This document shows, one piece after another, positions 57,823 through 59,161 of a stretch of 64,000 nt of DNA. This DNA comes from Leisingera sp. M658 (lineage in GTDB: Bacteria > Pseudomonadota > Alphaproteobacteria > Rhodobacterales > Rhodobacteraceae), in contig NZ_CP083546.1 in NCBI RefSeq assembly GCF_025144145.1, positions 3,878,001 to 3,942,000 of the forward strand, read 5' to 3'. Under the pieces are notes generated by a model, which was given only the letters and a program-made list of their open reading frames with translations, ran no database searches and was not told the DNA's origin. Numbering within the stretch: position 1 is the stretch's first letter; each line of letters starts with the position of its first letter. Position numbers and translations under genes: made by a program.

Positions 57823-58297
57823 GGGGCGTTGTTGCAAAACTCCCTCTTGAGGCCTGACTACCCCTTTCCCCTCTGAACTTAGGCGACGCGGACGATCTCG
57901 GCGGTGCCGAGTGCATTGAAGCGATTGATGAGGGCGATGCGGATGTGGATTTCAGCGGTTTGGCTACCAGGGTCTCTTGCGGCGATGCGTTCGCCGAATG
58001 CCTTCAAGCAGCGCATCTTTGCCTCGACCCGGCTCCGGGCGTGGTATCCTGTCCAGCGTTTCCAGAAGGCCCGGCCGTAGTGCCGGGTGGCGCGCAAGGT
58101 TTCGTTTCTGACCTGTGCCGCCGGGCAGTTTTCTTTCCACGGCTGGCCATTCTTGCGGATAGGGATAATCGGGACGGCCCACGCTTGATGATGGCGGAGT
58201 GGCAACGGCGCGTGTCATAGGCCCCGTCTGCAGTCACGCTGCCGATCTCTTCGTCCTTCGGACTCTGGTCGCGCAGTTCCGGCAGGACCGGGCTGTC

Positions 58298-58338
58298 CAC
58301 TGCCCGGCAGTGGTTTGCGCAGCATAACCACGAGAGGG
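58298..58338 (-). repeat. Nested hairpin element, copy N1 (41 bp)
   Basis: Read on the minus strand: CCCTCTC, stem GTGGTT(A)TGC-TGC-GCAAACCAC with one bulged A, then CTGCCGGGCA. It splits the transposase codons SRDG and DSPVLPEL; removing exactly 41 bp rejoins them in frame. The base after the element on that strand begins GACAGC. Confidence 0.8.
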
Positions 58339-58362
58339 GCCGTCGCGGCTGGGGGTGAATTC

Positions 58363-58404
58363 CCTCTCGTCAGATTTGCTTTGCAAATCGCCTGCCGGAC
58401 AAGG
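58363..58404 (+). repeat. Nested hairpin element, copy N2 (42 bp)
   Basis: CCTCTCG, stem GATTTGC-TTT-GCAAATC, then CTGCCGGACA. It lies between GAATTC and GACAGC; removal rejoins the transposase residues DIRAV and EFTPSR. Being 42 bp it is frame-neutral and adds 14 residues (PCPAGDLQSKSDER) to the frame. Confidence 0.8.
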
Positions 58405-58457
58405 GACAGCACGGATGTCAGACGTGGCAGCATCCATCGCAAGATGCACCTTGCGCC

Positions 58458-58496
58458 CCTCTCATTGATTGCTCTGCAATCAACTGCCGGGCAGCG
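58458..58496 (+). repeat. Nested hairpin element, copy N3 (39 bp)
   Basis: CCTCTCA, perfect 8-bp stem TTGATTGC-TCT-GCAATCAA, then CTGCCGGGCA. Removal restores the tryptophan codon in RRQWRKVHLAMD on the minus strand. It is the only copy not followed by GACAGC. Confidence 0.8.
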
Positions 58497-58572
58497 ATTG
58501 GCGTCGCCCCTGAACGCCGTGCTTGCGGGCCTGCCACTCACCATCGCCAAGGAACTTGATCCCGGTGCTGTC

Positions 58573-58613
58573 CGTTGCCCGGCAGGGCATTGCATAGCAA
58601 TGTCCCGAGAGGG
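58573..58613 (-). repeat. Nested hairpin element, copy N4 (41 bp)
   Basis: On the minus strand: CCCTCTC, stem GGG(A)CATTGC-TAT-GCAATGCCC with one bulged A, then CTGCCGGGCA. It lies directly before GACAGC of the DSTGIK catalytic segment. Two bases of the transposase also appear to be missing at the junction, so the net change is 39 bp. Confidence 0.78.
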
Positions 58614-58669
58614 GACGCAGGTTCAACGGACCATCGGCGCGGCGATACGGGATCTGGACGGCCAGCGTT

Positions 58670-58714
58670 CTATGGGCTTACGCGGCCCCACTGGGGCCAC
58701 GGTCCCATCTCACT
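58670..58714 (-). repeat. Fifth hairpin insertion in the transposase, different type
   Basis: About 45 bp between the transposase segments TLCRRQ and the next conserved codons. On the minus strand the inner stem is CGTGGCCCC-AGT-GGGGCCGCG (one G-U pair), with outer arms ATGGG and CCCAT. It lacks the CCTCTC and CTGCCGGGCA flanks of N1-N4. The exact borders are uncertain by a few bases. Confidence 0.6.
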
Positions 58715-59161
58715 CTGCCGGCGGCACAGTGTAGAGAAATCGGGAACGGGCCAGTCCACAGGTGCAAAAGGCTGGCGACCATCCCGGCGGTCTGCCGGAG
58801 TGGCAACTTGAACAGAACCTTGATCGACAGGCAGAACTGGATCGCCGAGTTCGAGAAGACTGGTGGACGCCCCGGTCGCCCTTCATGCGGCGCGAGCCAG
58901 GTCATCTCTTTGTCCAACCGGATCAGAAGCGACCCGCGCTTCCTGAGCGCATCGTTGTAGCTGGACCAATTCGTCGTGCGGTAGCGGGCAGGTGCGGGCT
59001 TGCTCATCTAACCCGTCTAACCGCATGGATTCGTGATGTGAATCCTTAGCGGTCAGAGTTCTGCAACAATGCCCCCTTGAGGCGCGGATGGCCGCAATCA
59101 CCCTGGAATGGGCGCGTTTAAGGGCAATTCTGACCTTAAACCGCTTCTCAGCAAAGGGAAG

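Follow-up and report, generated by a model that had tools for sequence, protein, structure and literature searches.

A dispersed family of short hairpin inserts in insertion sequence genes of Leisingera sp. M658 and related bacteria

A single transposase gene in the genome of Leisingera sp. M658 is interrupted by four short blocks that can each be drawn as a hairpin, and this locus raises the question of what such blocks are, how they came to lie within a coding sequence and whether they occur elsewhere. The stretch of DNA analysed here (hereafter the window) comprises 64,000 nucleotides of contig NZ_CP083546.1. A first-pass annotation of the window had placed four inserts in the gene, two in each orientation, and its coordinates proved to be exact (Table 1). 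Its description of the blocks, with CCTCTC at one end, CTGCCGG(G/A)CA at the other and stems that differ in sequence but remain paired around a 3-base loop, was likewise borne out: on the element strand, all four read as CCTCTC, stem, 3-base loop, CTGCCGG(G/A)CA and three bases ending in G. Folding of the single window elements was just modestly better than that of shuffled sequences in three of the four cases.

Table 1. Coordinates of the insertion sequence in the window, its transposase pseudogene and the hairpin inserts
Feature	Position in window	Strand	Details
ISRhba5-like IS5-family IS, non-autonomous copy	57825..59073	-	Direct repeat of 9 bp, CCCTTGAGG, at each edge
Transposase pseudogene	57879..59007 (start 59007, stop 57879)	-	Deduced from ORFs and by comparison with intact copies of 1052 bp
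Hairpin element 1, 41 bp	58298..58338	-	Stem GTGGTT(A)TGC / GCAAACCAC; directly before GACAGC
Hairpin element 2, 42 bp	58363..58404	+	Stem GATTTGC / GCAAATC; directly before GACAGC
Hairpin element 3, 39 bp	58458..58496	+	Stem TTGATTGC / GCAATCAA; adjoins ATTGGC
Hairpin element 4, 41 bp	58573..58613	-	Stem GGGACATTGC / GCAATGCCC; immediately preceding GACAGC (codons of DSTGIK)
Unrelated 43-bp hairpin insert of another family, same transposase gene	58672..58714	-	From alignment to relatives

Four inserts in a multiplied insertion sequence

Comparison of copies within the own genome gave a length of ~1248 bp for the window IS, and an annotated ISRhba5 relative aligned with it across 1052 bp, which places it in the ISRhba5 group of IS5. 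The two halves of its transposase matched the Pfam families DDE_Tnp_1_5 (E 7e-20) and DDE_Tnp_1 (E 1.6e-5). Seven full-length copies, including that in the window, were found in the own genome at 99–100% identity when the best 40 of 73 candidates were scored, a sampling from which a diverged intact copy may have escaped. Two further matches, at 66–67%, belong to a different IS5-type gene with an open frame of 221 residues. Besides the four hairpins, the window transposase contains a fifth insert of 43 bp and has lost 7 nt and 1 nt in two small deletions, and because of these three lesions it is dead irrespective of the four elements. The 43-bp hairpin was present at 22 of 299 loci, each of the 22 being a copy of the window IS or a stretch that includes such a copy. 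The 9-bp direct repeat and the seven nearly identical copies imply that the broken IS nevertheless moved recently, presumably in trans.

The alignment of the window IS covered 15 relatives, taken from genomes of the genus and from named plasmids. In its uninterrupted relatives (L212, L213, L203–L205, L214 and L216) the sites are exactly empty, with no base duplicated, and the uninterrupted ISRhba5-like copies, of 1032–1052 bp, are without all four blocks. The blocks are thus true insertions, as had been proposed from the window, and do not belong to the normal length of the IS. Just to the left of insert 4, the copy in G000 is 2 bases shorter than the copies in G003.

Architecture, targets and host genes of the family

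The blocks also recur as dispersed copies in the own genome and in related genomes. A loose sequence pattern gave 67 matches in the own genome compared with none for a reversed-pattern control. A covariance model trained on 12 copies (cut-off E up to 0.5; 150 of 7006 first-look candidates scored) returned at least 101 matches, which were grouped by their flanks into 58 clusters; this figure overcounts sites, since seven clusters represent the four window-IS sites in diverged or recombined copies and others represent homologous sites in related IS. Rfam searches of the window and of loci L004, L012 and L202 gave no match at the gathering threshold.

The family consensus is (C)CCTCTC-stem-CTGCCGGRCA-RYG, the last three bases being mostly RYG. 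The constant ends are CCCTCTC or CCTCTC on the left and CTGCCGGGCARYG on the right, and can also be read as CCCTCTC and CTGCCGGRCARYG. Loops are mostly of 3 bases, some of 4, and elements of the family are ~29–46 bp long, with 29–45 bp in the tally over the 58 clusters, each length having two readings because the first C is assignable either to the target or to the element.

Pairing of the stems was examined in 116 distinct rows out of 130 aligned copies, in an alignment that was itself fitted to the model. Pair cells were paired in 95.5% of cases compared with 68.1% after shuffling, and the covariation score was 0.563 compared with 0.129 in shuffles and at most 0.045 in slid controls. Eight of the nine pairs vary on both sides, a figure that shuffles approach (mean 6.2; reached in 6 of 500), and the outermost stem pair is unpaired in 24 of the 116 rows. 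An ungapped alignment of 12 rows concurs, with 99.1% of cells paired, seven of nine pairs varying, a covariation score of 0.591 and slid controls at or below 0.135. The combination of constant flanks with strongly covarying stems indicates that the shape of the element matters. The stems had been described at first as shuffling. They do vary with pairing kept, but no exchange of stems between copies is evident, and the variation is better described as many self-complementary stem subfamilies.

The target approximates to NNC|GAYG, with insertion mostly between C and GAYG and without target duplication. Across 75 deduplicated sites, position −1 is C in 57, +1 is G in 59, +2 is A in 43, +3 is T or C in 64 and +4 is G in 44; at least five of these loci (L076, L113, L118, L145 and L165) are probably chance matches, and a recount without them gave 56, 58, 42, 62 and 43 of 70 at the same positions. 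The preference for GACAGC suggested by the window holds for three of its four inserts, the fourth adjoining ATTGGC, and for the family gives way to this wider target. Coding frames support the position of the boundary. When elements are excised exactly, both flanks have the same best coding frame in 9 of 15 strongly coding sites, and moving the left boundary one base either way lowers the agreement to 1 of 15 and 4 of 16. Across all 58 clusters the corresponding figures are 20 at the exact boundary and 7 and 14 when shifted, where ~10 would be expected by chance. The idea that the stem is chosen by, or copied from, the target was rejected, as a permutation test at the 75 deduplicated sites gave a best p of ~0.09, which is not significant. 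The stem ATTG at the target ATTGG is a tempting single case of such a match.

The host genes are overwhelmingly those of IS. Pfam matches to transposition-related or IS-type HTH families support 39 of the 58 clusters, 29 of them above the curated cut-off. These figures derive in part from 49 joined stretches (E up to 0.01; clusters 49 and 52 not included), of which 32 matched a transposase, integrase, IS-associated or HTH family, 22 over the curated cut-off and three by HTH only (clusters 29, 41 and 53). The remaining seven of the 39 are the four sites in copies of the window IS, where the match lies on that IS. Other Pfam matches were to Med23 (E 0.0018, cluster 31) and to DUF6527 next to IS66 (cluster 43). 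A further 17 clusters lie in what we take, by eye, to be IS3, IS5, IS21, IS110, IS481 or recombinase sequence, clusters 37 and 47 being weak cases. Reading frames of hosts were picked by recognised motifs, codon usage being unreliable for decayed IS, and the assignments are to that extent biased towards the recognisable. One cluster is intergenic and one was left without a host assignment. The Pfam host types in the own genome include IS5, IS3, IS66, IS21, IS110 and IS91, and the near-restriction to IS genes may reflect either a target preference or survivorship in IS.

Two host loci are unusually dense. One IS66-type transposase gene (L004; own genome C1:586.4–587.5 kb) contains four elements, of which three lie at or close to what are presumably the catalytic D, D and E codons, and a cluster of decayed IS (L012; C1:2412.0–2416.7 kb) holds eight hairpin matches in less than 5 kb. 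The intergenic copy (L030:2037–2075) belongs to a shorter class with the stem GGCGGC-AAA-GCCGCC and lies outside any IS, between two genes resembling dTDP-sugar genes. Similar short matches are common to many genus genomes, and this may be a separate or domesticated class.

Filled and empty sites, and how the elements may move

The occupation of homologous sites was compared between IS copies. The IS of G000, G003, G004, G005 and Leisingera sp. M527 all carry insert 3 at one and the same nucleotide. Among the relatives examined, the one closest to the G000 copy is empty (L212, 93.6%), and no filled copy exceeds 88.6%; the G004 copy likewise has an empty one as its closest (L203, 90.8%), and no filled copy exceeds 79.6%. 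In the clade of G005 and M527, filled L202 and empty L213 show no difference in closeness, both being at 97.1%, and the IS of the G003 group stands at ~80% from all others and has no close relative; the discordance is therefore shown in two lineages only. In at least these two, the filled and empty sites are out of step with the relatedness of the IS. Moreover, the insert-3 copies of G000, G003 and G004 differ at ~2 of 39 bases while their IS backbones differ by ~20%, the stem at the insert-4 site is not the same in G000 as in G003, and further stems again are found at similar DSTGIK sites of other genomes. The mosaic means that precise insertion, precise loss or both took place repeatedly.

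IS copies that carry elements went on multiplying, as the seven copies of the window IS and a second, five-copy carrier attest. The latter is an IS5 element of ~880 bp whose five copies (L002, L017, L023, L031 and L033) differ by 2 SNPs, occupy different targets on contigs C1 and C7 and all contain the hairpin, directly before what is presumably the first catalytic Asp codon. The corresponding empty site exists at 98% identity in L190. Besides the hairpin a single frame change is visible, at an A5G6 run, which we take to be, perhaps, a case of programmed frameshifting. A protein search of the own genome (43 of 43 candidates scored) revealed no full-length, close, uninterrupted relative; it returned fragments (the longest of 88 aa, 89% identical), element-carrying copies and others at 28–47% identity. 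This leaves two readings, loss of the helper or an interrupted gene that is open to restoration. At full length, two IS types of the own genome were seen only in interrupted, multi-copy form. In G003, five ISRhba5-like copies (L206–L210) that are 98.4–99.5% alike contain two elements each, and they have multiplied despite a tandem duplication of 13 bp and the loss of 1 nt. Multiplication of carriers in spite of such additional frameshifts suggests that mobilisation in trans does occur.

The explanation that we consider probable is that the hairpins form a non-coding, miniature mobile family that resides mostly in IS genes, is read by its structure and is moved in trans, as a parasite of parasites. 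The comparisons of copies with one another and with empty sites show precise insertion, compensatory upkeep of the hairpin, dispersal, mosaic use of sites and hitch-hiking in IS. Dispersal, empty sites, covariation and the different stems per site also support the original suggestion of an active or once-active miniature palindromic element. Such an element would travel as single-stranded DNA in folded form, with an enzyme provided in trans reading its flanks and hairpin shape and not the stem sequence; this enzyme would most likely be of the HUH or tyrosine-recombinase type. Insertion is precise, without target duplication and in either orientation, mostly at C|GAYG and almost exclusively in genes of many IS families. 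The element spreads by hitch-hiking in IS copies that still transpose, and interrupted IS copies would be moved in trans by related transposases; it is this carriage of an interrupted IS in trans that would make it a parasite of parasites.

The search for a mobilising enzyme found none, and the own genome contains no Y1 transposase gene. Y1 genes are present in six of the 21 genus genomes; at none of 13 such loci do elements form the two ends or do repeats flank a RAYT-type gene, and at one of them a single element lies ~140 bp upstream. On these grounds a Y1/RAYT enzyme was rejected as a likely present-day mobiliser in the own genome. A longer, autonomous version was rejected likewise: the 3′ end occurs in 51 exact copies in the own genome, every one of them in a short element, so no such version is seen there, a result that concerns exact ends, one-mismatch matches outside elements being also present (control 6).

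Several other explanations were weighed against this one. That the hairpins are REP-like repeats moved in trans by an IS200/IS605-type (Y1, HUH) transposase, and so a distant branch of REP/RAYT systems, is conceivable, if rather unlikely. A short hairpin with an unpaired conserved tag and tail, a bulged stem and target-specific insertion without duplication would all fit, as would the Y1 genes of some genus genomes, and CGTC-type REPs are described as commonest in Alphaproteobacteria and likewise without a dedicated transposase (PMC3733652). However, the own genome has the most pattern matches of the 21 and no Y1 gene, G020 (28 matches) and G018 (11) are also without one, the Y1 loci have no pair of elements around the gene, and the elements have no GTAG tag, loops mostly of 3 rather than 4–5 bases and a tail that is not CCA; REPs are, moreover, described as lying mainly between ORFs (PMC3733652). 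It is very unlikely that the hairpins act as mini-introns, with precise DNA excision, RNA splicing or ribosome bypass keeping the interrupted transposases usable. In support of that idea, two IS types were seen at full length only in interrupted form, the five-copy IS5 shows nothing beyond its hairpin and one A5G6 frame change and gave no close full-length intact relative in the search of the own genome, the insert-3 discordance in two lineages is also expected from precise loss, and the frame is preserved by two of the window's four inserts (42 and 39 bp). Evidence to the contrary is that elements are unbiased in orientation relative to the host gene (28 same and 25 opposite among 53 scored), so that removal from RNA or by the ribosome would need to work on both strands; these versions are unlikely, whereas precise excision from DNA is conceivable. 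A weaker argument than orientation is that lengths divisible by 3 occur in only 7 or 21 of the 58 clusters, according to the left boundary chosen, with at least 30 of 58 shifting the frame under both readings; carriers with further lesions (the 7-nt and 1-nt deletions in G000, the 13-bp duplication and 1-nt deletion in G003) multiplied all the same. A related and quite unlikely reading takes the hairpins as reversible switches, which an enzyme in trans inserts and precisely excises, often at IS catalytic codons, so that the IS is mostly silent, is sometimes restored and spreads with its hyperparasite. If true, this would explain both the mosaic of filled and empty sites and the IS types that are found only interrupted yet are freshly multiplied.

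A host defence that plants hairpins in conserved catalytic codons of transposases would account for hosts that are nearly all IS genes, for the four inserts in one IS66 transposase gene and for clusters 6, 7, 9, 10, 11, 13, 27 and 42, which lie directly before, or 1–2 codons before, codons that presumably encode DDE catalytic residues. It is nonetheless highly improbable, since most clusters lie away from catalytic codons, the target C|GAY by itself favours Val/Ile-Asp codons and the interrupted IS copies kept multiplying. The presence of the blocks in several copies of one IS, and nothing more, would favour an ordinary part of the IS or a chance similarity. Their absence from uninterrupted copies of 1032–1052 bp, the empty pattern control and dozens of unrelated host genes render this practically negligible.

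The mobile hairpin family favoured here was also compared with known systems. Integron attC sites have complementary core sites GTT and AAC and are recognised through their structure by the integron integrase; the element consensus contains no attC core motif. CCCTCTC and CTGCCGGGCARYG are not inverted repeats and the empty sites L212, L213 and L203–L205 show no duplication, so that the element is no classical MITE. Its covariation and the lack of duplication would agree with a putative single-strand element of the HUH or IS200/IS605 type, whose hairpin is recognised in single-stranded form and which inserts and excises precisely. With the GTAG REP/RAYT repeats it shares a size class of 20–40 bp, a hairpin beside an unpaired conserved tag, dispersal and some copies within genes (PMC3733652); it differs in that it has no GTAG tag, is not accompanied by a RAYT or other Y1 gene in the own genome, has a longer constant tail and lies in transposase genes rather than between ORFs. 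CGTC-type REPs are mostly alphaproteobacterial, with the tag CGTC (variants TGTC and CCTC), a stem of 8–9 bp, a loop of 4–5 bases, an unpaired tag and a CCA tail, no dedicated transposase known, and few, fortuitous associations with other transposase genes (PMC3733652). The element tag CCCTCTC contains CCTC, one of these variants (PMC3733652), whereas its loops of mostly 3 bases and its tail CTGCCGGGCARYG depart from 4–5 bases and CCA in a comparison made by description.

The Rickettsia palindromic element, put forward at first as the closest analogue, is likewise palindromic and lies within coding sequence of Alphaproteobacteria; it is 105–146 bp long and provides in-frame open reading frames, many in genes for conserved proteins (PMC2229807). 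The elements described here, at ~29–45 bp, often frame-shifting and in IS genes, differ in size and frame, and the analogy is a loose one. The GC clusters of yeast mitochondria (GC42) are likewise mobile palindromes of ~42 bp with a short defined target, a patchy presence at homologous sites and, as here, no known enzyme; they reside in an organelle, target AG nucleotides with a putative target duplication and have conserved stems and variable loops, the reverse of the emphasis seen here (PMC4478555). As far as our searches reach, by topic and by literal sequence in the open-licence literature, with subscription journals mostly outside, this ~41-bp mobile hairpin family is unnamed, in agreement with the first-pass view that it was undescribed. 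A family that lives almost wholly inside other transposons, and keeps its shape while its stem sequence changes, makes three questions accessible to tests: by what means the smallest mobile DNAs of bacteria move when they have no transposase gene dedicated to them, whether structure or sequence is what is read in a stem, and how an IS multiplies when the full-length copies found in a genome are interrupted. In annotation, some 'frameshifted transposases' of roseobacters are precise insertions.

Occurrence in other genomes

The search of roseobacter genomes proposed by the first-pass annotation showed that the element recurs across the genus and the family. The loose pattern was found in 20 of 21 genus genomes, the own included, with one control match, in G008, although some of the genus matches (G006 and one of G005) look like chance. 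A stricter pattern was found in 39 of 120 sampled family genomes, again including the own, with no control match. In a class sample of 385 it was found in the own genome, in three of four other family members and in 2 of 380 genomes from other families. The scan of public genomes mixes true copies with chance matches, and only loci with stem and flanks were kept.

In G007, 17 distinct matches were read among the 19 present in 16 loci, with three further pattern places left out. Pfam supports an IS type in five of seven host stretches tested there (two through HTH_21 only), the others being assigned by eye, and one short GGCGGC-type copy lies apparently outside any IS. Three hosts from other genera (Cohaesibacter, Ruegeria and Oceaniovalibus) gave Pfam matches to transposases of the Mutator type, the IS240 type and the DDE class, the DDE match falling below its cut-off; hosts of the IS6 and IS256 types are thereby included. 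Elements at L081:2076–2119 and L238:620–667 precede the same Ile-Glu codon pair in two apparent IS256-type transposases from different genera, the former host being supported by Pfam and the latter assigned by eye. Among the matches listed, an apparently genuine copy is present in the gammaproteobacterium Vreelandella neptunia (L138:4176–4219), in a host that appears IS3-like by eye, suggesting either transfer with an IS or assembly contamination.
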